64,000 bases of DNA from Zeimonas arvi (GTDB lineage Bacteria; Pseudomonadota; Gammaproteobacteria; Burkholderiales; Burkholderiaceae_E): positions 558,001 through 622,000 of the forward strand of contig NZ_VDUY01000001.1 in NCBI RefSeq assembly GCF_008039575.1, written 5' to 3'. Below the pieces are notes generated by a model. The model searched no databases and was not told the origin of the DNA. It worked only from the letters and a program-made list of their open reading frames with translations. Positions 3,351 to 38,574 of the stretch are shown one piece after another (positions within the stretch are counted from its first letter, which is position 1; the number at the start of each line of letters is the position of its first letter). The position numbers and the translations under genes were made by a program.

Positions 3351-3685
3351 GCCGGATACCTCCGCGCATTCGCCGCGAGCTTCTCGCGCACCGCGGCGTC
3401 CAGGTCCACGCCCAGCACCGAAGCGAGCCGCACCAGGTAGATCAGCACGTCGGCCAGCTCGTCGCGCACCGCCTGCGCGGTGGCCGGATCGCGGGCCGCC
3501 TCGGCGGACTGGGTCTCGGTCAGCCACTGGAAGATCTCGACCAGTTCGCCGACCTCGCCGGTCAGCGCCATCGCCAGGTTCTTCGGCGAATGGAAGCGGT
3601 TCCAGTCGCGCGCGTCGGCGAACGCCTGCAGCGCGGACTGCAGCGCCGAGACGTCGACGAGCGTGCCGGCGTCCTTCCTTGTCAT
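3347..3685 (-). CDS. MazG-like nucleotide pyrophosphohydrolase, 112 aa
   Basis: This short protein resembles the MazG/dCTPase-like family of all-alpha NTP pyrophosphohydrolases, which hydrolyse (often non-canonical) nucleoside triphosphates to monophosphates. The metal-binding pattern is visible: EVGELVEIFQWL (ExxE) followed by RDELADVLIYLVRLA (ExxD). The start is placed at the ATG at 3685, because homology-like sequence begins there and the upstream open frame is low-quality sequence antisense to the neighbour. It is transcribed after the iron alcohol dehydrogenase (31-base gap) and converges with the GST gene, sharing the four bases of the two stop codons. Confidence 0.85.
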   Translation of the reverse strand: MTRKDAGTLVDVSALQSALQAFADARDWNRFHSPKNLAMALTGEVGELVEIFQWLTETQSAEAARDPATAQAVRDELADVLIYLVRLASVLGVDLDAAVREKLAANARRYPA

Positions 3686-3716
3686 GTCGCGGACCGATCC
3701 CGGTGGCGGCCGCGCA

Positions 3717-4853
3717 TCAGCCTTCGAACGACGCCTCGAGCATGCCGAGGTAGTCGTCCCGCGTGGCCGCGCGCGGATTGGTCGCGTGGCAGTGGTCGAG
3801 CAGCGCCGCGTCGGCGATGCCCGGCAGGTCATCGCGGCGAACGCCCATTGCGGCGAGCCCCGCCGGCAGGCCGAGCCGGGCGTTGAGACCCTCGATGAAC
3901 GCCGCCGGATCGGCGCCCGCGGGCAGGCCCATCGCATCGGTCAGCGTGCGCGCCCTGGCCTCGAGCACCGGGGCATTGAATCGCAGCACCGCGGGCAGCA
4001 GGACCGCGTTCAGCGTGCCGTGGTGCAGCGGCCGTCCCTTCAACGCACCGAGCGGATGCGACAGCGCGTGCACCGCGCCCAGCCCCTTCTGGAAGGCCAT
4101 GGCGCCTTCCATCGCGGCCATCATCATCTCCCAGCGCGCCTGGCGATCGCCACCGTCGCGCGTCGCGCGCTCGATGTGCGCGCAACCGCGCCGCAGGCCG
4201 TCGAGCGCGATCGCCTCGGCCGGCGGATTCACCGACGGCGCGCAGAAGGTCTCGATGCAATGCGCGATCGCATCCATGCCGGTGGCGGCGGTCAGCATGG
4301 CCGGCAGGCCGAGCGTGAGCTCGGGGTCGCACAGCGCGACCTTCGGCAGCAGATGAGGGCTGAGCAGGCCGAGCTTGCGGCCGTTTCGCATCACGATCAC
4401 GCTGCCGCGGCCGACCTCGCTGCCGGTGCCCGCGGTGGTGGGAATCGCCACCAGCGGCGCCACCTTGGCGGTGATCCGCGCCGCGCCCCCCTCGACCGCG
4501 GCGTACTGCAGCAGCGGCTCGGGATGGGTGGCAATCAGCGCCACCGCCTTGGCCAGGTCGATCGACGAGCCCCCGCCCACGGCCACCAGGCCGTCGCAAG
4601 CCTGCTCGCGGTACACCTGCGCGGCGAGCATCACCGCGTCCTCGGTGGGATTGGGCGGCGTGCCGTCCCAGGTCCGCGCGTCGGCCGCACTGCCGATCGC
4701 CTCGGTGACCCGGGCAAGCAGCCCGGCGGCCACCACGCCGCGGTCGGTGACGATCAGCGGCCGGGTCACGCCGAGGCGCTGCAACTCGCCGGGCAACAGG
4801 CGCAGCGCGCCGAAGTCGAACTGGATCGTCGTCAGGTAGGTGATGGTGGCCAT
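3717..4853 (-). CDS. iron-containing alcohol dehydrogenase
   Basis: This 378-residue group III alcohol dehydrogenase would use NAD(P) and a divalent metal to interconvert an alcohol and an aldehyde or ketone. The nucleotide-binding GGGSSIDLAKAVAL segment (about residue 95) is present, as are PTTAGTGSE and the metal ligands spread over DAIAHCIETF and VHALSHPLGAL...HHGTLN. Its size matches 4-hydroxybutyrate or 1,3-propanediol dehydrogenases as well as maleylacetate reductases, which cannot be told apart here. It lies in the minus-strand group with the RraA-like gene (5') and the MazG-like gene (3'). Confidence 0.9.
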   Translation of the reverse strand: MATITYLTTIQFDFGALRLLPGELQRLGVTRPLIVTDRGVVAAGLLARVTEAIGSAADARTWDGTPPNPTEDAVMLAAQVYREQACDGLVAVGGGSSIDLAKAVALIATHPEPLLQYAAVEGGAARITAKVAPLVAIPTTAGTGSEVGRGSVIVMRNGRKLGLLSPHLLPKVALCDPELTLGLPAMLTAATGMDAIAHCIETFCAPSVNPPAEAIALDGLRRGCAHIERATRDGGDRQARWEMMMAAMEGAMAFQKGLGAVHALSHPLGALKGRPLHHGTLNAVLLPAVLRFNAPVLEARARTLTDAMGLPAGADPAAFIEGLNARLGLPAGLAAMGVRRDDLPGIADAALLDHCHATNPRAATRDDYLGMLEASFEG

Positions 4854-9130: not shown

Positions 9131-9511
9131 ATGGCCAACCAGACTGCTCCCGGGGCCCGCGAACTGGTCGTCGTGCTCACGCACGGCATCGACCACGAAC
9201 TCTCGTCGGCTGGCATGATCATCGCCCTGGGCGGCATGACCGCCGGCCTGAAGGTCTCGATCTTCCTGACCAGTTCGGGAGTGGACATCGTTCGGCGGGG
9301 CGCCGCCGACACCACTCACGTCAAGCCGCTGGAACCCCTGGCCGACATGCTGCGCGACTTCCTGGCCCGGGGCGGCACCCTGTGGGCATGCACCCCCTGC
9401 GTGAAGAGCCGCGGGTACACGCAGGAGAGCCTGCTCGATGGCGTGATCATCGCCGGATCGAGCGTCATGCACGAGCGGATCAAGGCCGGCGCGGCCACGC
9501 TCAGCTTCTGA
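9131..9511 (+). CDS. DsrE family protein
   Basis: This 126-residue protein has the small Rossmann-like DsrE/DsrF/TusD fold, whose members relay sulfur or bind thiols in the cytoplasm. Visible features are the N-terminal strand LVVVLTHGIDH, GGMTAGLKVSIFLTSSGV, and a CxxC pair in GGTLWACTPCVKSRG that corresponds to the reactive cysteine region. The start has a good GGAGG site. It is divergent from the AraC regulator and converges with the MFS gene, overlapping it by 11 bases. Confidence 0.88.
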   Translation: MANQTAPGARELVVVLTHGIDHELSSAGMIIALGGMTAGLKVSIFLTSSGVDIVRRGAADTTHVKPLEPLADMLRDFLARGGTLWACTPCVKSRGYTQESLLDGVIIAGSSVMHERIKAGAATLSF

Positions 9512-10685
9512 GCGATCGGCCGCCGGCGGGCAATCCCCCCGCCAGCAGTGCGCCCAGCACATTGCCGCCCGCCGCGACCAGCACCGCGGCGCCATAGCCG
9601 CCGGTGCGGTCGAACAGCCAGCCCGCCAGGATCGGCAGGCTGACCGCTGCGATGCACCAGGCAATGTACAGTTGCCCGGCGATCCGGCCGAACTCGTTGC
9701 GATGCCAGTACTGGGCGATCGCCCCGGCCACCGCGCCCGACATGAAGCCGTAGCCCATGCCGATCATCGCCAGCGCCGGCACCGCGGCCAGGGGCCCGGG
9801 CCAGAAGCTCAGCAGCATCGCGCCGGCGAGCGACCACAGGTGCGCAGCCGCGGCGACCCGCGGCATCGGAAAGCGGTCGACCAGCCAGCCGCCCCCGACG
9901 CGTGCCGCGGCGATCGCCGCGGTGATGAAGGTGGTGGCCCCGAGCGCCAGTGCGGTGCGCCCGCCGTAGGCCTGCACGATTCCGGCGGCCTGGCTCATCA
10001 CGGTGAGCCCCGCCGCCGCCGCGAGAAAGAACACCACGAACAGCCGCGCGAACACCGGCCACTGCCGATCGATCGACCCGGCGGCCGGGAGGTCTGACGT
10101 CCGCATCCGGATGTCGGCCCGGGCCAGCAGCCAGGCGGCGAACACGCAGGCGGCGAGGACGGTCGCGCCGAGCCCCGCCAGCGTGGCCCGCAATCCGAAG
10201 GCCGCGATCGTATAGCCGAACAGAGGCGCCCCGATCATGGCGCCCAACGGGTACAACGCCACCACGTAGCCGTTCACCAGGCCGCCGCTCGAAGCCAGCG
10301 TCTGGTTGACGCCCTGCTGGACCAGGATGAAACCCACCCCGCCACCCAGCCCGAACAACAGACCGTAACCCAGCGCAAGCTGGCCGATGCCACCCGCGCT
10401 CGCCGCCAGCCAGAGCCCGATCGCGCTGCCCGCGCCGGCCAGCAGGAGCACCGGCACGGCCGGCAGGCGGCGATACAGCAAGGGCGAAAGGTTCATGCCC
10501 ACGACCAGGCAGATCGTGGCCAGGCCGAACACGAAGCTCATCTGCGCGCGGCCGATGCCGAGCATCTCCTCCATCGGCTTCAGGAATACGCTGAACGCGT
10601 AGATGGTGCCGAAGGGCAGGTTGACCGCGGTGGCCGCGGCGACGACGGCAAGGGCGCGCTGGCGGTGACTCGTCGGGCTGGGCAT
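9501..10685 (-). CDS. MFS transporter, 394 aa
   Basis: A complete 12-helix major facilitator. The pattern (NLPFGTIYAFSVFLKPMEEMLGIGRAQMSFVFGLATIC, later GLGGGVGFILVQQGVNQ and GGWLVDRFPMPR) resembles oxalate/formate antiporter-like and monocarboxylate-type carriers. The start is the ATG at 10685, the first Met before the first helix; the frame upstream has no helix and is antisense sequence. It is divergent from the flavin reductase gene. Substrate unknown. Confidence 0.88.
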   Translation of the reverse strand: MPSPTSHRQRALAVVAAATAVNLPFGTIYAFSVFLKPMEEMLGIGRAQMSFVFGLATICLVVGMNLSPLLYRRLPAVPVLLLAGAGSAIGLWLAASAGGIGQLALGYGLLFGLGGGVGFILVQQGVNQTLASSGGLVNGYVVALYPLGAMIGAPLFGYTIAAFGLRATLAGLGATVLAACVFAAWLLARADIRMRTSDLPAAGSIDRQWPVFARLFVVFFLAAAAGLTVMSQAAGIVQAYGGRTALALGATTFITAAIAAARVGGGWLVDRFPMPRVAAAAHLWSLAGAMLLSFWPGPLAAVPALAMIGMGYGFMSGAVAGAIAQYWHRNEFGRIAGQLYIAWCIAAVSLPILAGWLFDRTGGYGAAVLVAAGGNVLGALLAGGLPAGGRSLRS

Positions 10686-10785
10686 GCCGCAACTTAGCCT
10701 TTCGACCGGCGAATGGCTATGCTGCGTGCCATCCCGAACGCGGCCGCCATGCCGTTTTTCCCGCACCGAACCTGCACGCCGGACC

Positions 10786-11385
10786 ATGCGAAAGCCCGTT
10801 GCCCTCCCCCATGCCTCCCGCCTGCTCAACCACGGCCCCACCGTCCTGGTGAGCAGCGCCCACCGGGGATGCCGCAACGTCATGGCGGCCGCCTGGTCGA
10901 TGCCGGTCGAGTTCACGCCGCCGCGCATCGCGGTGGTCATCGACAAGAGCACCTACACCCGAGAGCTGGTCGCCGCGAGCGGCGCCTTCGCCCTGAACAT
11001 ACCCTGTCGAGCGCAGGCCGACCTGGCCTTCGCCGTGGGCAGCACCAGCGGGCGAGCGTCGCTGGCGCACGGCACCGACAAGTTCGCCGAATACGGCATC
11101 GACACCTTCGACGGACCCGAGCTCGGCCTGCCGCTGGTCGCCGGCTGCATCGCCTGGATGGAGTGCCGGACGATCGCCGAGCCGCATGCCGAGCAAGCCT
11201 ACGACACCTTCTTCGCCGAGGTGGCTTCGGCGCAGGCGGATCCGCGGGTGTTCGACGGCGGCAAGTGGCACCTTTCGCCGGAAAACGCGGCGCTGCACAC
11301 GCTGCATCACCTGGGCGGCGGCGTGTTCGCGGTGGCGGCGGAGGGAGTGCGGGCGAAGCCGCTGCCCGGCCGGCACGGCAGGTAG
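10786..11385 (+). CDS. flavin reductase family protein
   Basis: This 199-residue protein matches the FMN-binding split-barrel flavin reductases: PTVLVSSAHRGCRNVMAAAWSMPVEFTPPRIAVVID near the N-terminus, then ELVAASGAFALNIPCR. Such proteins reduce FMN or FAD with NAD(P)H for a partner monooxygenase, or act as flavin-dependent reductases themselves. No monooxygenase gene is adjacent. The downstream 140 bases before the permease stop codon contain nothing I can assign. Confidence 0.85.
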   Translation: MRKPVALPHASRLLNHGPTVLVSSAHRGCRNVMAAAWSMPVEFTPPRIAVVIDKSTYTRELVAASGAFALNIPCRAQADLAFAVGSTSGRASLAHGTDKFAEYGIDTFDGPELGLPLVAGCIAWMECRTIAEPHAEQAYDTFFAEVASAQADPRVFDGGKWHLSPENAALHTLHHLGGGVFAVAAEGVRAKPLPGRHGR

Positions 11386-11525
11386 GCGGTCCGGACGATC
11401 TCGCCGATTCCGGATCGCCGCTCCTGCTCGCGCAGGTGCGGCTCTACGGCCACATGGTCTCGCGCCTGCTGCACTTCGCCGCCTGCCTGGGCGCGCGCGC
11501 CCTGTTACGGCTGCCACAGCCTTGC

Positions 11526-14045
11526 TCAGTGCTCGAACTCGAAGCAGATCGATTGCGCGTCCAGGATCCGCGCCCTGCAGTCGTACCGGCGTTCGATCGT
11601 CCGGGCGACCCGCTCCAGCGCGGCCGACTGGTCGAGCGACTGCGCGCCGCTGCGGGCAGAACCGGGCTGCCCGTTCCGCACCACCACCGAAAGCCGGAAT
11701 TCGTCGAACTGAAGCGCCACCTCGAGGCTCGTGGCGCCCGACACGATCGCAAGCTCCTCGCACCACTCCGTGACCGCCGGCGCGGCACGGTGGATCACAT
11801 CGCCGCGAGCCCCCCAACTGGCGCCCTGCCGCTCGAAGAACCGCAAGATCCGGTCTGCGGTCCCGGAGTCGAAGACCAGATCCAGCTTCGCGCGACTGGA
11901 GACCCCCGCATTGAGGCCCAGGTTCAGGACCAGCGCCAGGATCGTGGACACCGACAGCGGACTTCCTGCCAAGGCCAGGGCCCAGGCCGGCGCATCTTCG
12001 GCAATGCCGGGCATCGCCATCAGCCCGACTCCGGCAAGCAAGGGAAGCCCCACCACGTAGTTGCGCCGCGCGTCGAGCATCCGCGCAGTGACGAGCTCGG
12101 CGCCGGAGGACACCAGGTGACAGGCGACGAACAGCAGGCCCGCCCCCATGACCGGCGCAGGCATCATCGAAAGCAGCGTGGTCGCCTTCGGCATGAAGGC
12201 CAGCGCAAGGAACATCCCGGCCACCACCAGCCCCAGCACGCGCGCGGTAGCGCCGGTGGCTGCCGCGAGGCCCACACTCCCCCCCGAGATCCCCAGCCCG
12301 ACGCCGCCCAGGGCTCCGGCGGCCAGGTTGCCCACTCCGCTCGCCATGATTGCGCCGCTCGTCGAGCGCATGTCGGGCCGCTTCCATCCAGCGTCGTTCG
12401 TCTTCTGGCAACTGGTCACCAAGCCGGCCTCCTTCACGCCCGAGGCGAGCGCCGCCGCGAAGAAGGGCATCACCAGCGCCACTTCGAACCGCAGGCCCTC
12501 GGCGGGGAGCGCCAGCATGCCGAACAACGGCAACTCGCCGACCCGCTGGGCCGTCGTCACATCCAGCAAGCCTGCGGCGGCCCCTGCGAGGTAGCCGAGC
12601 CCCATGCCGGCGGCCGTGGCGTAGAGGCGGATCCTGCGGAAGGGCAGCACCGACAGGACCACGATCGCGCCGAGAGTCAGCAGGCCCACCCCGATGCTGG
12701 CGGACCGGGCCACGGCAACACCATCGCCACCCCCGAACACCTGCGGCAGCGCAACCGGCACGATGGACAGCCCGACCATCAGGACGACCACCCCCGAGAC
12801 CTCGGGCGGAAACAGCTTGCGAAAACGCAGCACGAGCTGTGACATCAAGAGCGTGACCGCGCCGGCGAAGATCGTCATCCCGAACACGAGGCCGAGGCCC
12901 CCGAGCCTGGCAGCGAGCAGGCTCGGGCCCAGGTAGATCGCCGACGTGATGTACGGGGCGAGGAATCCGGATCCCACCCATCCGGACCGAGACGTCTGCA
13001 GCAGGGTCGCAACAGCCATCGCGACCAGCGACATGCTCACGACCGATGCGGCAGCCGAGCGCGAGCCGCCCGCCTCGAGGGTCACCAGCACCGGATAGGC
13101 GAGGGACATCACCGCGATCAGCACGTGCTGGAATGCGAGCAGCAAGGCGACCCCGACCGGCGGACGGTCGTCGACCGCGTAGATGAGATCGACCGGCTTG
13201 CCGGATGTCGACTTCAGGGCGCGATCGAGTCGCGCCGCCTCGATCGCCGCAGCAGCATGGGCCGCCATCGAGTTGACCGCCTGAAGCTCGCCGGCGCTGA
13301 ACTCGCGACGCGCCCGCATCCCGGCCACCAGCACTCCGAATACCCGGTCGTGCGACCTCAGGGGGCTGCAGATGATCGACTGCAGCCGGTTCCGCGCCGC
13401 CAGCGATCGCGAGTCGGACGAGACCTCGTTGACGATCTCGCCCACCCCCGATTGCAGGACCGACGCGACGATGTCGTCCGCCACGTCACGGGTCGCCCGG
13501 TCGTGAAAGGGATCGCCGCGCCCCGCCGCCGTTTCCAGCCGGTTCGTCTCGGGATTCAGGAGCAGCGCGGTCGCGCTGTCGCAGCGAAGGAAACGGGCCG
13601 CTTCCTCGCAGAGCACCTGCGCGATCTCGCCCGAATCGGTGGCCCCGATGATCTTCTCCGAGACGGCGTAGAGCATCGTGACTTCCTTGTAGCGGTCGAG
13701 CGACTCGCGGGCGAGCGCGCCTGTCTCTGCCTCCTGCGCGAACAGCACGCGGAGCAGGCGCGCCAGCTCGCCGGCGCGAGGGCCGTACACCCGCGCAACC
13801 GGGCGACCGTCAATCGTCACCACCTGGTGCTCGCCGTCGAGCTCGATCGGATCGCCGGCAACCGCCTTCCCTTGCGGATCCGTCAACGCGTGCCGGGGTC
13901 CCAGTCTGGTCAGTTCGGACGCCAGGTACTCGGCGAGCCCGGGCTTGCGAAGCAACCTTCGCAACGCCCTTCCGGACGCTCCCGAGGCGCCCTCGTCGTT
14001 CGCGCCTGCCCGCTCGCCTGCGTCGAGCAGGCGTCCCCTAGTCAT
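11526..14045 (-). CDS. GAF sensor - NCS2 (xanthine/uracil-type) permease - ATPase-like fusion, 839 aa
   Basis: Domains in order are as follows. An N-terminal module (about 30-110) has a TDPQGKAVAGD...VTIDGRPVARVYG pattern like the input of stress phosphatases and cyclases. A helical linker leads to a GAF domain (about 125-272). A membrane domain (about 285-735) starts PPVGVALLLAFQHVLIA, as in the NCS2 nucleobase/ascorbate permeases, with many Gly-rich helices. A soluble C-terminus (about 745-839) may be a degenerate HATPase/RsbW-like fold. Ordinary NCS2 permeases are about 430-480 residues without these ends. It is the last gene of the TAXI-kinase-regulator operon. Its ATG lies inside the end of the response-regulator gene (8-base overlap). 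Substrate and the fate of the signal are unknown. Confidence 0.8.
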   Translation of the reverse strand: MTRGRLLDAGERAGANDEGASGASGRALRRLLRKPGLAEYLASELTRLGPRHALTDPQGKAVAGDPIELDGEHQVVTIDGRPVARVYGPRAGELARLLRVLFAQEAETGALARESLDRYKEVTMLYAVSEKIIGATDSGEIAQVLCEEAARFLRCDSATALLLNPETNRLETAAGRGDPFHDRATRDVADDIVASVLQSGVGEIVNEVSSDSRSLAARNRLQSIICSPLRSHDRVFGVLVAGMRARREFSAGELQAVNSMAAHAAAAIEAARLDRALKSTSGKPVDLIYAVDDRPPVGVALLLAFQHVLIAVMSLAYPVLVTLEAGGSRSAAASVVSMSLVAMAVATLLQTSRSGWVGSGFLAPYITSAIYLGPSLLAARLGGLGLVFGMTIFAGAVTLLMSQLVLRFRKLFPPEVSGVVVLMVGLSIVPVALPQVFGGGDGVAVARSASIGVGLLTLGAIVVLSVLPFRRIRLYATAAGMGLGYLAGAAAGLLDVTTAQRVGELPLFGMLALPAEGLRFEVALVMPFFAAALASGVKEAGLVTSCQKTNDAGWKRPDMRSTSGAIMASGVGNLAAGALGGVGLGISGGSVGLAAATGATARVLGLVVAGMFLALAFMPKATTLLSMMPAPVMGAGLLFVACHLVSSGAELVTARMLDARRNYVVGLPLLAGVGLMAMPGIAEDAPAWALALAGSPLSVSTILALVLNLGLNAGVSSRAKLDLVFDSGTADRILRFFERQGASWGARGDVIHRAAPAVTEWCEELAIVSGATSLEVALQFDEFRLSVVVRNGQPGSARSGAQSLDQSAALERVARTIERRYDCRARILDAQSICFEFEH

Positions 14046-14421
14046 CGGCGAAGCCAAGCGCCTGCCGAACCGCGGCCAGGAGCGCGTCCGGATCGAAGGG
14101 CTTGATCAGGTAACCGTTCGCGCCGACCTCCCGGGCCCTGGCGCGGTCGTACTCCTGCCCCTTCGCCGTCAGGAAGATGACGTGGGCGCCGCGAGCGCCG
14201 TCGTCGTTGCGCAGGTTCGCGCAGACCTCGAAACCGTTCATCCCGGGCATCATGACGTCGAGCAGCACCACGTCCGGCCGCTCCACGAGGATCATCGAGA
14301 GCGCCGTCGTCCCGTCAGGGGCAACGAGGATCTCCACTCCCTCGTCCTCGAGTTCCTCGATGCTTCGCTCGATCAGGGTACGGATGTGGGCCTGGTCCTC
14401 GGCGATCAAGACCTTCTTCAT
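14038..14421 (-). CDS. receiver-only response regulator, 127 aa
   Basis: A single CheY-like receiver domain with nothing after it. The acidic pair is at Glu8-Asp9, the phospho-acceptor is Asp55 (VVLLDVMMPG), the switch Thr is Thr85 and the conserved Lys is Lys107 (LIKPF). With no DNA-binding or enzymatic output domain, it must act by binding a partner. It sits between the histidine kinase (ATGA overlap) and the GAF-permease (8-base overlap), so the simplest reading is that the kinase phosphorylates it and it acts on the permease fusion (inference). Confidence 0.92.
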   Translation of the reverse strand: MKKVLIAEDQAHIRTLIERSIEELEDEGVEILVAPDGTTALSMILVERPDVVLLDVMMPGMNGFEVCANLRNDDGARGAHVIFLTAKGQEYDRARAREVGANGYLIKPFDPDALLAAVRQALGFADD

Positions 14422-16043
14422 GGCTCGCGGCCCTCCTGGCGCTCGACGCTCCGGCCGCCCCCGTCGCAGCCGGGGAGGACAAAGCGGAAGGTACTGCCCT
14501 TGCCGACCTCGCTTTCGACCCAGATCTCGCCGCCGAAGTCCTTGACGATCTCGCGGCAGATCGGCAGGCCGAGTCCGGTGCCGGTCGGCTTGTCCGTCAG
14601 CGTATCGCCCACCTGCCGGAACTTCTCGAAGATGGCCTCGCGGTCCTCCGGCGCGATGCCGAGGCCCGTGTCGGCGACACTGAACTCCACGAAGCCGTCG
14701 TCGCGCCGACGCGCTGCACAGCGTATCTCTCCCTGCGACGTGAACTTGACCGCGTTCGAAATCAGGTTGACCAGCACCTGGATCAGGCCGTCTCGATCCG
14801 CGAGCACCGAGCCGACATCCGCGGCAGCGTGGACCCTGCAGGCCAGGCCCTTCGCCGCGTAAAGCGAGCTGGTTGCGGCGGCCGCCTGCGAGAGGACCTC
14901 CGGAACATCGACCGGGCCGACGTCCCAACGCATCTCCCCGGCCTCGATCTTCTCGAGATCGAGAAGATTGTTGATCAGGGAAGTGAGGCGCTCGCCTTCG
15001 CCCAGGATGATCCCGATGTGCTCGCTCACCTCGTCGACTGCCGGCCCGAGATTCGCAGGACCGGACTGGATGGCCGGGCGAATCGTCCGCTCGAGCCGGC
15101 GCTGGATCAACCGCGTGAAACCGAGGATCGAGGTCAGTGGCGTGCGCAACTCGTGGCTCACATTCGTGAGGAATGCCGATTTCGCCAGGTTGGCCGCCTC
15201 GGCTGCCCTGCGAGCTTCGTCGAGGGATCGCTCGTGATCGCGGAGCTCCCGGGTCACCGCATCGAACACGCCGACCGCCCGGGCCATCTCGCCGATCTCG
15301 TCGCGCCGGTCTCGGCCCGGCACCTCGTTGACGCGGTCCCCGGCCGCGATGGCCGTGAGAATGTCGATCATCTGGCTGATCGGCCGGGAGATCGCGCGGC
15401 CGACGTAGATCGTGATCCCTATCGAAAGCAGGATCACGAGCGCCGCCCCGATCGCGAGCATCCGTGCCAGCCGGGCGACCTCGCGCTCGGCACGCTCGAC
15501 GGTGGCGAGCGCGGAATCGAGCGAGCGCTCGGCGAGTTCGGAGATGTAGCCCTGCAGCTGCTGGTAGTGCGCCATGATCGTGCTGACCGACATCGTGTCG
15601 ACCGGCGCCCCGCCGAACATGCGCGTGGAGACCGCCCTGTGGATCGTCAGGAAGTCCTCGATATTCGCCACGACGTCGCCGTGACCTGCTCCGACGGGAC
15701 TCGCCTTCACGCTGTCGAGCGCGCGCGCGATGTCCTCGTAGCGGTCGAGGATCGATTCGCGAAGATCGGCGAGCACGGGGTCGTCGGCATCCAGCCGTTG
15801 CCGCAGCTGCGCGTAGCGCAGCACCGCCGCCTGCACCTCAGACACCGAAAGCAGCAGACGCGTCGTGGTCGTCGTGGCGACCGTGAGAGGCCCCTGCACC
15901 ACTTCGCGGTAGCTGGCCTGCTGCTTGCGGAGCGCAAGGTCGAAGACCAGCATCGCACCGAGCATCAGCACAATGATGATCGACGGCGCGACGAACACGG
16001 TCGTCCTGATCGACCAGCGGCTCCATGCGCTCACGCCGGTCAA
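14418..16043 (-). CDS. membrane-bound sensor histidine kinase
   Basis: This 541-residue kinase has a first transmembrane helix (about 13-36), a periplasmic helical domain (about 37-190), a second helix (about 195-214), HAMP (about 214-266), a short coiled coil, HisKA with His297 in NVSHELRTPLTSI, and HATPase_c. The N box (LVNLISNAVKFTS), G1 (DTGLGIAPED), F (FEKFRQ) and G2 (GTGLGLPI) are all intact. The periplasmic part resembles four-helix-bundle sensors that often contact a binding protein. The start is a TTG at 16041-16043 that overlaps the TAXI stop codon (TTGA); a GTG three codons later is an alternative. Confidence 0.92.
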   Translation of the reverse strand: MTGVSAWSRWSIRTTVFVAPSIIIVLMLGAMLVFDLALRKQQASYREVVQGPLTVATTTTTRLLLSVSEVQAAVLRYAQLRQRLDADDPVLADLRESILDRYEDIARALDSVKASPVGAGHGDVVANIEDFLTIHRAVSTRMFGGAPVDTMSVSTIMAHYQQLQGYISELAERSLDSALATVERAEREVARLARMLAIGAALVILLSIGITIYVGRAISRPISQMIDILTAIAAGDRVNEVPGRDRRDEIGEMARAVGVFDAVTRELRDHERSLDEARRAAEAANLAKSAFLTNVSHELRTPLTSILGFTRLIQRRLERTIRPAIQSGPANLGPAVDEVSEHIGIILGEGERLTSLINNLLDLEKIEAGEMRWDVGPVDVPEVLSQAAAATSSLYAAKGLACRVHAAADVGSVLADRDGLIQVLVNLISNAVKFTSQGEIRCAARRRDDGFVEFSVADTGLGIAPEDREAIFEKFRQVGDTLTDKPTGTGLGLPICREIVKDFGGEIWVESEVGKGSTFRFVLPGCDGGGRSVERQEGREP

Positions 16044-16981
16044 TTCGCGAGGCCCTTGGCCCGAAAGAAGTTCAGTGCCCCGGGATGGACCTCGATAGGG
16101 CGAACCGCCAGCGCCTTCTCGGCGCTGATCCCGCGGATCGCCTGGTGCGTTGCGCGGATCTCGTCGAGATTCCCGAAGATCGCCCTCGTGATCTCGAAGA
16201 TCTGCGCCTCCGGAGCGTCGATCGTCGTGACGAAGTAGTTGTTCAGGGCCGCCGTCGCGACGGCCTGGCTCTGCCCGGGATAGGTGCCGGCAGGAATCGA
16301 AGTCGAGAAGAACATCCGCGGATTCCTCTCGACGATCTCGCGCTCGATCGGCACGATCGTCACTTGCGCGCGCGTGCTGGCGTCAGTGACCGCCTTGACC
16401 CCGAGCCCGGCCGAAACGACGATCGCGTCGAGCTCGCCCTTCACCAGCAGCTCGACGCTCTCGCCGTAGTGAAGGTACTCGACATGCAGCAGGTCCGCGT
16501 AGCTGAGCTTGACCGCACCGAGAAGCGCCCGCGCGTTGAGTTCGTTTCCGCTGCGCGCGGCGCCCACCGACACGCGCTTGCCGACAAGGTCGTGGATGGT
16601 GCCGATACGGGCGTCGCGGCGGGCAACCAGGTGTATGTAGTTGGGGTAGGCGGCCCCGACGAGGCGGATCTTGGTGCGCGAGCTCGGAAAGCCCGCCGCC
16701 GGGTTGCCCGCCATCGCCTCCGAGAGAATGTCTCCCTGGGCCAGGGCGAGCACGCCGACCCCCCGCTGCAGGAGATTCAGGTTCTCGACGGTGCCCTGCG
16801 TGGACCGCACGGTCACCGAAGTTCCCTTCAGCTCGCGCTCGAGGATTTCCTTCAGCTTGAGGCCGACCGGGTAGTAGACGCCCGCCTTGCCCCCGGTGAG
16901 GATCTCGAGCGATTGCGATGCCGACGGGCCCGGCAAGCACCCGAGCACAAGCGCGACCCAGAGGACTCCGATCCTGATCAT
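16040..16981 (-). CDS. TAXI family TRAP-type solute-binding protein
   Basis: This 313-residue exported binding protein has a signal peptide (VLWVALVLGCLPGPSAS). It shows the TAXI pattern: LEILTGGKAGVYYPVGLKLKEIL at the mature N-terminus, SVTVRSTQGTVENLNLLQRG, ALAQGDIL and GKRVSVGAARSGNELNARALL. TAXI proteins normally feed a fused DctQM TRAP permease, which is absent here. The gene instead opens an operon with a histidine kinase, a receiver and a fused NCS2 permease, so a sensory-receptor role is plausible (inference). The ATG at 16981 has GGGGGAG just upstream. A candidate promoter lies at 17084-17112. Confidence 0.88.
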   Translation of the reverse strand: MIRIGVLWVALVLGCLPGPSASQSLEILTGGKAGVYYPVGLKLKEILERELKGTSVTVRSTQGTVENLNLLQRGVGVLALAQGDILSEAMAGNPAAGFPSSRTKIRLVGAAYPNYIHLVARRDARIGTIHDLVGKRVSVGAARSGNELNARALLGAVKLSYADLLHVEYLHYGESVELLVKGELDAIVVSAGLGVKAVTDASTRAQVTIVPIEREIVERNPRMFFSTSIPAGTYPGQSQAVATAALNNYFVTTIDAPEAQIFEITRAIFGNLDEIRATHQAIRGISAEKALAVRPIEVHPGALNFFRAKGLAN

Positions 16982-36179: not shown

Positions 36180-37208
36180 ATGAGCCATCTCCCGAAGGTA
36201 AAGGTCGCCGCGGCGCACGCGGCGCCTGTCTTCCTCGACAAGCGCGCCACCGCCGAGAAGGCGGTCAGCCTGATCGCCGAGGCGGCGCGTCAGGGCGCCG
36301 AACTGGTGGTGTTTCCCGAGTCCTACGTACCGGCTTTCCCGGTCTGGGCCGCGCTGTGGGCGCCGCTTCACAACCACGACCTCTTCGCGCGGATGGTGGC
36401 CAACAGCATCGAGGTGCCTGGCCCCGAGATCCGGATGATCGCCGCCGAGGCGCGCCGGCGCGGCGTGTTCGTGTCCCTGGGCATCAGCGAGAAGAGCCCG
36501 GTCAGCGCCGGGTGCATCTGGAACTCGAACCTGCTGATCGACGATCAGGGTCGACTGCTGAACCACCACCGCAAGCTGGTGCCGACCTTCTTCGAGAAAC
36601 TGGTCTGGGCGCCCGGAGACGGCGCCGGGCTGCGGGTGTCCGACACCCGGATCGGGAACATCGGCGCGCTGATCTGCGGCGAGAACACCAATCCGCTGGC
36701 CCGCTACGCGCTGATGGCCCAGGCCGAGCAGATCCACATCTCGACCTGGCCGCCGATCTGGCCGACCAGGGTGCCTCGCGCGGGCGGCAACTACGACAAC
36801 GTTGCGGCGAACCGCACGCGCGCCGCGGCGCACTCGTTCGAGGCGAAGGCCTTCACCATCGTGTGCGCCGGCTTCATGGACCGGGCGATGCGCGATTTCC
36901 TGGTCGACCGCGATGCGAGCGTCGCCGACGTACTCGACGAGACGCCGCGCGCCGCATCGATGCTGGTCGACCCGACCGGCGCACAGGTGGGCGACATGCT
37001 TCAGGCCGAGGAAGGCATCCTGACCGGCGAACTCGACCTGGCCGCCTGCGTGGAGCCCAAGCAGTTCCACGACGTCGTCGGGTACTACAACCGCTTCGAC
37101 GTGTTCGAACTGAAGGTCACGCGCGAGCGCACGCGGGCGGCACAGTTCCTCGACCACGACCTGCCCGGCCCCATCCCGCTGGCGGACGACGATGCCGGGC
37201 AGCCTTAA
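36180..37208 (+). CDS. nitrilase / carbon-nitrogen hydrolase
   Basis: This 342-residue enzyme has the complete nitrilase triad: Glu in VVFPESYVPAFPVW, Lys in NHHRKLVPTFFEKLVW, and Cys in GALICGENTNPLARYALMA. Length and the WPPIWP segment fit the true nitrilase branch (R-CN to R-COOH plus ammonia) better than amidases, where the cysteine context usually differs. Nitrilases form cytoplasmic spirals and often have a C-terminal tail as here. The gene overlaps malonyl-CoA decarboxylase by 17 bases and is divergent from a LysR regulator. Confidence 0.88.
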   Translation: MSHLPKVKVAAAHAAPVFLDKRATAEKAVSLIAEAARQGAELVVFPESYVPAFPVWAALWAPLHNHDLFARMVANSIEVPGPEIRMIAAEARRRGVFVSLGISEKSPVSAGCIWNSNLLIDDQGRLLNHHRKLVPTFFEKLVWAPGDGAGLRVSDTRIGNIGALICGENTNPLARYALMAQAEQIHISTWPPIWPTRVPRAGGNYDNVAANRTRAAAHSFEAKAFTIVCAGFMDRAMRDFLVDRDASVADVLDETPRAASMLVDPTGAQVGDMLQAEEGILTGELDLAACVEPKQFHDVVGYYNRFDVFELKVTRERTRAAQFLDHDLPGPIPLADDDAGQP

Positions 37209-38574
37209 GGCCAACGGCGCCGTCGGCCGGCTGGCCGAAACCGTCGCCTACGGGCCCGAGATCTTCGCGCGCTTCGTGCGCGCGCTGAAGGGCCGCAACA
37301 AGGTCGATGCGCCAGTCCGGCTGGCCGAAATGGCCGCCGGCCTGCTTTCCATCCGCGGCGAAGCCTCGGGCGTGGCGCTCGCCCGGCAACTGCTCGACGA
37401 GTACCTCGAGGCCAGCGACGCCGACAAGCTGGCCTTCCTGCTGGAGCTGGCGCGCGAGTTCGGGCCCGACCAGAAGGCGCTCGAGCGCAGTGTCGCGGCC
37501 TGGATGAAGAAGCCATCAGGCGCGACCGCATTGGCGCTGCACCAGGCAGCCGAGTCGCGCCGCCAGGAGCTGATCCGCCGGATGAACCAGGCGCCGGGCG
37601 GCACCGCCACGCTGGTGAGCATGCGCGAAGACGTGCTGCGCAACCTGAAGGCGGAGCCCGATCTGGCGCCGCTCGACGCCGACTTCGTGCATCTGCTGTC
37701 GTCGTGGTTCAACCGCGGTTTCCTGCGCATGCATCGGATCGACTGGTCGACGCCGGCCGAGATTCTCGAACGGATCATCCGCTACGAAGCAGTGCACGAG
37801 ATCTCCAGCTGGGACGACCTGCGCCGGCGCATCGACCCATCCGATCGCCAGTGCTTCGGCTTCTTCCACCCCGCGCTGGGCAACGACCCTCTCGTGTTCG
37901 TCGAGGTCGCGCTGACCGAGGGCATCCCGAGCGCCATCGCGCCGCTGCTCGCAGAGAAACGCAAGCCGATAGACCCGAGCAAGGCCGATACCGCAGTGTT
38001 CTATTCGATCTCGAATTGCCACATGGGGCTGCGCGGCGTCTCCTTCGGCAACTTCCTGATCAAGCAGGTCGTCGAGGAACTGTCACGCGAGTTCGCGGGG
38101 CTGCAGACCTTCGCGACCCTGTCGCCCGTGCCCGGTTTCACCCGCTGGCTGGCGAAGGAGGCTGCCAGCCGCGACGGCGCCCTGCTGACACCCGGCGATC
38201 GCGACAGGCTGGAGCCCCTCACGCGCAGCGACGTCGAGCTCTCGGACCGCCTGCTGGAAGCCGCCAAACCGGCGCTGAACAACGCGCTGCTCACCTATCT
38301 CTTCGACGCGAAGGACGGCACGGCCAAGTCGCTGGACCCGGTGTCGCGCTTCCACCTGGGCAACGGCGCCCGGCTCGACCGCGTCCATTGGGCGGCCGAC
38401 ACCAGCAGCAAGGGGCTCAAGCAGGCGCTGGGCTTCATGGTCAGCTACGTGTACGAGCTGCAGGCCGTCGAGCGCAACCACGAGGCCTACGTCAGCAAGG
38501 GCGAGATCGCCATGTCGCCGGCGCTCTCCAGGAGCGTTGCGGCGATGAGAAAGCGGCGGGAGCAGAAGGAGTAG
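37192..38574 (+). CDS. malonyl-CoA decarboxylase
   Basis: At 460 residues this is a full-length malonyl-CoA decarboxylase (malonyl-CoA to acetyl-CoA plus CO2). It has the N-terminal four-helix domain (1-180) and a GNAT-like catalytic domain. The latter holds CFGFFHPALGNDPLVFVEVALT, TAVFYSISNCHMGLRGVSFGNFLIKQVVEEL and LSPVPGFTRWL, which carry the family's catalytic Ser and His regions. The 17-base overlap with the nitrilase ties the two in translation. If the nitrilase makes malonate or a malonyl precursor, this enzyme would finish the path, although no malonyl-CoA synthetase is next to it. Confidence 0.92.
   Translation: MPGSLKANGAVGRLAETVAYGPEIFARFVRALKGRNKVDAPVRLAEMAAGLLSIRGEASGVALARQLLDEYLEASDADKLAFLLELAREFGPDQKALERSVAAWMKKPSGATALALHQAAESRRQELIRRMNQAPGGTATLVSMREDVLRNLKAEPDLAPLDADFVHLLSSWFNRGFLRMHRIDWSTPAEILERIIRYEAVHEISSWDDLRRRIDPSDRQCFGFFHPALGNDPLVFVEVALTEGIPSAIAPLLAEKRKPIDPSKADTAVFYSISNCHMGLRGVSFGNFLIKQVVEELSREFAGLQTFATLSPVPGFTRWLAKEAASRDGALLTPGDRDRLEPLTRSDVELSDRLLEAAKPALNNALLTYLFDAKDGTAKSLDPVSRFHLGNGARLDRVHWAADTSSKGLKQALGFMVSYVYELQAVERNHEAYVSKGEIAMSPALSRSVAAMRKRREQKE

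Follow-up and report, generated by a model that had tools for sequence, protein, structure and literature searches.

In the stretch of the Zeimonas arvi genome analysed here (contig NZ_VDUY01000001.1, positions 558,001 to 622,000; 64,000 nucleotides, below called the window), four genes on the minus strand encode a solute-binding protein of the TAXI family, a membrane histidine kinase (HK), a response regulator (RR) consisting of a receiver only, and a permease of the NCS2 type. The best single reading of this operon is that the kinase, sensing the TAXI protein, and its receiver control the permease post-translationally; we propose this tentatively, giving it somewhat less than an even chance. 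The key clue, which an earlier note on this DNA had missed, is the nature of the permease C-terminus, which is predicted to be a degenerate domain of the RsbW type. Also new are the partner-switching genes found beside relatives of the permease, the probable origin of the TAXI protein from a TRAP system and the replacement of nucleobase-site residues in the permease.

The four minus-strand open reading frames were confirmed in the order TAXI-HK-RR-permease, with the overlaps of four, four and eight bases reported in the earlier note, and its family names were borne out by Pfam and NCBIfam. The TAXI gene (16040-16981, 313 amino acids; match to TIGR02122) is followed by the HK gene (14418-16043; HAMP, HisKA and HATPase_c), whose TTG start overlaps the TAXI stop by four bases (TTGA, 16040-16043). 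The RR gene (14038-14421, 127 amino acids) overlaps the HK gene by four bases as well (ATGA, 14418-14421) and shares eight bases (14038-14045) with the permease gene (11526-14045, 839 amino acids; GAF_3 and Xan_ur_permease). A second genome of the same genus (G057) contains the same set; both four-base overlaps are conserved there, and RR and permease genes are separated by a gap of about eight bases instead of overlapping. The TTG start of the HK gene is likewise conserved, its assignment as the start being not certain. The TAXI proteins of the two genomes are 91% identical, and the ratio of nonsynonymous to synonymous substitution rates (dN/dS) between them is 0.16 for TAXI, 0.15 for HK, 0.08 for RR and 0.23 for the permease. 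Since these values are well under 1, the operon is more than a chance arrangement. Within the permease, the first 109 residues have a dN/dS of 0.40, the GAF region 0.15, the NCS2 core 0.16 and the C-terminus 0.33.

The operon is real and maintained, yet narrowly distributed. The four-gene set was found in two of 74 genomes of the family and two of 399 genomes of the order, namely the window genome and G057, so that conservation of the gene order across Burkholderiales, proposed as a check by the earlier note, did not materialise. The permease as query (P0001) matched 10 of the 74 family genomes at E 1e-20 or better and 7 of the 399 order genomes at E 1e-60 or better, and wider searches matched 4 of 398 genomes of the phylum (query P0006, E 1e-60) and 6 of 61 from a different order (query P0007). 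The GAF-fused form of the permease is present only in the window genome and G057 among the family and order genomes; it is absent, judged by the matched range, from 18 loci of a contig collection and from the sole matching plasmid record (Azospirillum). The GAF region alone as query likewise matched 2 of 74 family genomes. With the sensor region of the kinase, matches were obtained in the same two genomes among the 399 of the order and in 6 of 74 of the family, four of these being weak partial matches. On a permease tree of 35 rows, the window and G057 pair sits on its own long branch.

The predicted permease consists of an N-terminal GAF region (residues about 110-280, 13206-13718 on the minus strand, assigned by Pfam), an NCS2 core (PF00860, 130 bits at a cut-off of 27) and a C-terminal GHKL-type domain (11529-11882, minus strand). 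A domain of about 120 amino acids follows the core in the aligned permease relatives too, with the exception of L008-L010 and of cut or broken copies. A profile of twelve of these C-termini compared with eight separate RsbW-type proteins gave an E-value of 8e-6 and a probability of 84% over 125 columns in hhalign, the STAS control reaching E 0.35 over one column. The AlphaFold2 model of the C-terminus (predicted local distance difference test, pLDDT, 87.9; predicted TM-score 0.81) has the RsbW of B. subtilis as its top solved match (6m37, E 8e-4, TM-score 0.56), which is the sole match at E of 0.001 or below; further RsbW chains, UsfX and ATPase domains of kinases follow, interspersed with designed proteins, and the RsbW and UsfX chains reach TM-scores of 0.5-0.6. 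Pfam HATPase_c_2 gave no match on this region. The earlier note had called it ATPase-like and no more; Pfam does not detect this region, and its recognition took a profile comparison and a fold model.

The N-box Asn and the FDP motif are invariant in all eight separate RsbW-type proteins, and the G1 Asp is present in five of them (it is replaced in L037, L038 and L106). The permease C-termini contain no counterpart of the N-box Asn and the FDP motif, and the residues expected for ATP binding were not found. At two loci of the window's own genus, L037 and L038, the RsbW-type protein encoded beside the permease has a Tyr at the position of the G1 Asp; since this residue is replaced, these two proteins may bind ATP poorly.

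The neighbourhood of the permease was examined at 36 loci, window and G057 included, markers being counted as BLAST matches up to 3.5 kb from the permease; duplicate contigs and three ordinary NCS2 matches that have no C-terminal domain (L008-L010) were left out. The counts are lower bounds, several loci ending at contig ends (for example L028, L032, L036, L038, L104 and L132); for L014, which has two permeases, the measurements refer to the second one alone, and the broken permease copy of L105 counts as a locus. RsbW was found at eight loci (L013, L014, L015, L016, L037, L038, L106 and L117), STAS at these eight and L134, and a SpoIIE phosphatase at all the RsbW loci except L117. A kinase core is present at seven loci (window, L031, L013, L017, L019, L023 and, on the opposite strand, L106), TAXI at two (window and L031) and a DctP-type protein at three (L015, L021 and L022). 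Seven of the eight RsbW loci have the order RsbW-STAS-permease; at L117 the order is permease-STAS-RsbW, with a receiver, a hybrid kinase and a receiver-phosphatase farther along. Pfam confirmed selected neighbours, among them phosphatases that also carry a receiver or a cyclic-nucleotide domain. The partner-switching neighbours lie beside permease relatives that have no GAF domain, and two of these loci (L037 and L038) are those of the window's genus. Switch genes beside some permease relatives suggest that transport may be under direct control of signalling proteins.

Several single loci are worth recording in their own right. At L134 a STAS gene (3589-3921, plus strand) ends 126 bases before the NCS2 permease, and RsbW gave no match in the flanks examined. 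This STAS protein reads MAAAGL where the others have SSAG; since the usual phosphorylated serine is missing, direct contact between STAS and permease appears more likely in this single case than a sigma-factor circuit. L106 encodes, directly after its RsbW-STAS-NCS2 set, a fusion of an ammonium transporter with a SpoIIE-type phosphatase (10334-12502, plus strand), which ties another transporter to a switch of this kind. Two NCS2 permeases stand in tandem 3´ of SpoIIE-RsbW-STAS at L014 (1423-4858), two of the family are adjacent on opposite strands at L116 (6392-10024), where a receiver gene lies some 3 kb away, and at L105 (1530-3429) an NCS2 relative is spread over several frames and apparently broken. 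DctP-type binding proteins are encoded 39 and 10 bases before the permease at L021 (8829-9929) and L022 (8660-9934), where a TRAP membrane gene was not seen by eye among the neighbouring open reading frames, and 377 bases after it at L015. A general DctP-NCS2 pairing was rejected, the gene being confined to these three loci and absent in L024 and L130.

The phosphorelay residues of the kinase and the receiver are intact. HK has transmembrane segments at residues 16-34 and 196-214 (by hydropathy) enclosing a periplasmic part, followed by HAMP, HisKA and HATPase_c, and its H box (SHELRT at 296) and N, G1, F and G2 boxes are intact. RR retains the acidic pair (AED at 7-9) and the phosphorylated Asp, the Thr and the Lys (LLDV, LTAK, IKPF), and Pfam finds Response_reg alone, in agreement with the earlier description of a regulator that has no output domain. 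The accompanying premise, that receivers end in an output domain or act on motors, is out of date: in EpsW-EpsZ of Myxococcus, a single-domain receiver has been reported to activate a membrane enzyme by acting on it directly (PMC12802240). That pair differs in its target, a sugar-phosphate transferase, and in its signal, which a chemosensory system supplies.

The periplasmic sensor of HK was modelled as all-helical (pLDDT 74, from two sequences 97% identical), and the top Foldseek rows for this model include the four-helix bundles of the chemoreceptors Tar and Tsr. Such a fold would fit docking of a binding protein but does not show it. In TorT-TorS and LuxP-LuxQ, too, a kinase whose sensor domain is periplasmic stands next to a binding protein of the periplasm; to our knowledge, the binding proteins there are of other families and the operons contain no permease. 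Pfam did not detect its TorS sensor domain in the window kinase, and the fold search was weak; a relationship with TorS was dropped. TorS, LuxQ and LytS are described as kinases stimulated by binding proteins (PMC6321045).

The TAXI protein scores 279 bits against TIGR02122 (TRAP_TAXI; cut-off 84) and has, read by eye, a signal peptide and a possible lipobox, which we take LVLGC to be. Its motifs GVYYP and LAQGD are common, with small changes, to the solved Thermus protein 1us4 (alignment to 1us4 and 8u79). According to Jaques et al. (PMC12344293), Y45 and Q93 are the key residues of VcGluP for glutamate; their equivalents most likely fall in these two motifs, a placement made by motif. The site motifs suggest a small, glutamate-like carboxylate as ligand.

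A family search gave 16 TAXI relatives at 41-46% identity, including one each in the window genome and G057, and all 16 adjoin a fused TRAP permease above the TIGR02123 cut-off. Among the operon genes no fused DctQM TRAP permease was found with Pfam and NCBIfam, and none of the best 12 of the genome's 19 TIGR02123 matches lies near the operon (570-575 kb on contig C1), those on this contig being at 407, 841 and 870 kb. The earlier statement that the TAXI protein has no TRAP partner here therefore holds within these searches. Because all 16 nearest relatives adjoin such a permease, the TAXI protein was probably recruited from a TRAP system. The premise that TAXI proteins serve TRAP permeases is itself out of date, TAXI-GltS being a counterexample (PMC12344293).

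In a profile search of solved structures, the permease core found the NCS2 (SLC23) carriers UapA (E 2e-31) and UraA (E 3e-24), to which it is homologous over the core by Pfam as well. It differs from them in its extra GAF and RsbW-type domains, in scores far below the curated NCS2 and PbuX cut-offs (125 of 292 bits for TIGR00801, 178 of 414 for TIGR03173) and in its substrate site. At the positions that we take to be Glu356 and Gln408 of UapA, other residues are present across the permease family, K and G in the window protein (printed alignment, read by eye), and the conserved nucleobase-site residues were not found in the window permease. These replacements make a usual nucleobase substrate unlikely, and this candidate was set aside. 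The one annotated match of the permease family, and the sole annotation seen, is solute carrier family 23.

From these observations the following mechanism may be proposed. The TAXI protein, formerly part of a TRAP system, would bind a glutamate-like small carboxylate outside the cytoplasmic membrane and serve as receptor for the co-encoded kinase, which would phosphorylate the receiver-only regulator. A regulator without an output domain would act by protein binding, its nearest target being the co-translated permease, and would dock most likely at the cytoplasmic RsbW-type domain. An additional, internal signal would come from the GAF domain. Among some of the permease relatives, phosphatase, RsbW and STAS proteins may fill the same controlling role. 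The model of a phosphorelay-controlled transporter put forward by the earlier note is thus plausible but unproven: a TAXI gene uncoupled from TRAP that overlaps the gene of an intact kinase, an output-less receiver and a permease family found in part beside signalling genes speak for it, while order-wide conservation and the two premises named above fell away.

A number of points weigh against control of the permease by kinase and receiver. Only two genomes, both of one genus, are known to contain the operon. The C-terminus matches the RsbW fold no more than modestly (root mean square deviation 4.8-6.3 Å for the RsbW chains), and Foldseek with the HK sensor model was weak, its best match (E 0.055) being a designed protein. 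At 27 of the 36 loci no RsbW, STAS or phosphatase match was found near the permease, some of these loci being cut by contig ends; linkage of the permease family to switch genes is not general. On the permease tree, clustering of the RsbW-STAS label is weak (at least 2 changes, with 31 of 500 shuffles as low). Furthermore, the switch proteins are separate genes and could have a sigma factor or another target. The 64-kb window contains no RsbW or STAS match better than E 0.005, and phosphatase queries significantly matched the receiver gene alone. The refuting condition of the earlier note, a permease kept without the kinase-receiver pair, applies literally, 34 of the 36 loci having no TAXI-HK-RR set. 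These 34 relatives do not decide the case because they are about 28-39% identical to the window permease and have no GAF domain.

The true target of the receiver could lie elsewhere, in a switch module, an enzyme or a transcription factor, the permease being co-transcribed to follow the same signal. We regard this as unlikely, but as the most serious of the alternatives. Co-transcription of sensor and transporter is commonplace, and at 29 of the 36 loci no kinase match was found near the permease. In addition, the window genome contains a separate cluster on contig C4 (L145, G000:C4:176000-192000) with kinase, receiver, RsbW, STAS, a patatin-like protein (by eye) and a receiver-phosphatase. 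It includes the one strong HATPase_c_2 match of the genome (109 bits, the next having 38) and, about 3 kb from it, the only SpoIIE match; it is also matched by STAS, receiver and kinase queries and by no NCS2 query, and its receiver is 75% identical to the one at L117. The receiver of the operon might serve this module instead. On the other hand, no DNA-binding two-component regulator was seen in or directly beside the operon in the window genome or G057, as judged by reading the open reading frames, and the cytoplasmic domains of the permease are themselves of the signalling type.

The boldest rival is a TAXI-dependent permease, in which the TAXI protein would hand its ligand to the NCS2 permease while kinase and receiver read the same loaded protein. 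We consider its chances to be slightly lower still. A precedent is the citrate system BctC-BctDE-BctBA, in which a solute-binding protein is linked to kinase and transporter (PMC5812351), BctC-BctE being an example of one binding protein that serves a kinase as well as a permease. The proteins there are of the TTT family and the regulator acts on transcription, whereas the receiver of the window lacks an output domain. Closest among published systems is TAXI-GltS of Bordetella pertussis, where a TAXI protein without TRAP is paired with a non-TRAP secondary transporter thought to be an elevator, a mechanism that according to the authors is maybe what enables the pairing (PMC12344293); the Y and Q motifs are kept in the window TAXI protein. 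GltS is not an NCS2 carrier, its TAXI protein is elongated and encoded directly next to gltS, and no kinase or receiver is reported for it. SLC23/NCS2 carriers are described as elevators too (PMC11362169). A TAXI-dependent permease would also fit the lack of a TRAP permease beside the window TAXI gene among the best 12 matches, compared with 16 of 16 nearest relatives adjoining one, the DctP-type genes near the permease at L021, L022 and L015, and the replaced nucleobase-site residues, which make another substrate likely. However, TAXI and DctP are found beside the permease family at only two and three of the 36 loci, L024 and L130 are close orthologues of L021 and L022 and have no DctP gene there, and the window TAXI gene is coupled first to the kinase rather than to the permease. 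The 36 loci showed no fusion of TAXI with NCS2, nor was direct coupling of binding protein and carrier found across many species, and the TAXI-GltS coupling itself awaits experimental verification by its authors' account (PMC12344293).

Both ideas could be combined in a class of signal-gated elevators linked to binding proteins, in which an NCS2 carrier with a pseudo-RsbW domain is switched by STAS in several lineages or, here, by the phosphorylated receiver, the TAXI protein also presenting the substrate; so broad a proposal is rather improbable. Least probable of all is that the NCS2 protein is a transceptor signalling through its RsbW-type domain, with transport lost or secondary: replaced UapA-type site residues (E to K, Q to G, by eye), signalling-type domains at both ends and transporter-fused sensors such as the SLC5/STAC kinases (PMC9100948) would agree with it, but the NCS2 core is strongly constrained (dN/dS 0.16), the QH pair of the first transmembrane segment and many glycines are invariant in a 13-row alignment, and no output partner is known.

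For control of the permease by kinase and receiver, the precedents are BctC-BctE, for a binding protein that serves kinase and permease alike, EpsW-EpsZ, and the kinases TorS, LuxQ and LytS. Carriers of the SulP/SLC26 family have a fold related to that of NCS2 carriers. They too have a C-terminal domain from the partner-switching world (PMC8256260); the window permease differs in carrying the RsbW side of the pair, STAS being a separate gene in some relatives. Our literature search covered few subscription papers and no preprints; among the papers listed we found nothing on NCS2 permeases that carry an RsbW-type C-terminus or a GAF domain or go with a kinase, nothing on partner switching with such a permease, and no direct precedent for a TAXI protein working with a kinase.

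Some further features of the window lie outside the operon. A RidA-family gene (PF01042, 17154-17540, minus strand) is located about 170 bases upstream and is upstream in G057 too; it is probably a mere neighbour and possibly the start of the operon transcript. An MFS transporter and a nitrilase-like gene cluster (9501-10952 and 36180-38574, by eye) are unlinked to the operon.

Should the permease be a target of switch proteins or of the phosphorylated receiver, a switch mostly known from the control of sigma factors would be gating transport, the mirror image of SulP carriers and their STAS domain. If the TAXI protein also feeds the carrier, this would be a further secondary transporter dependent on a solute-binding protein, and such transporters are named in the Discussion of the TAXI-GltS paper as a test of the authors' elevator proposal (PMC12344293). 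The RsbW-type C-terminus and the gene order RsbW-STAS-permease provide defined, testable partners for a poorly annotated permease family.

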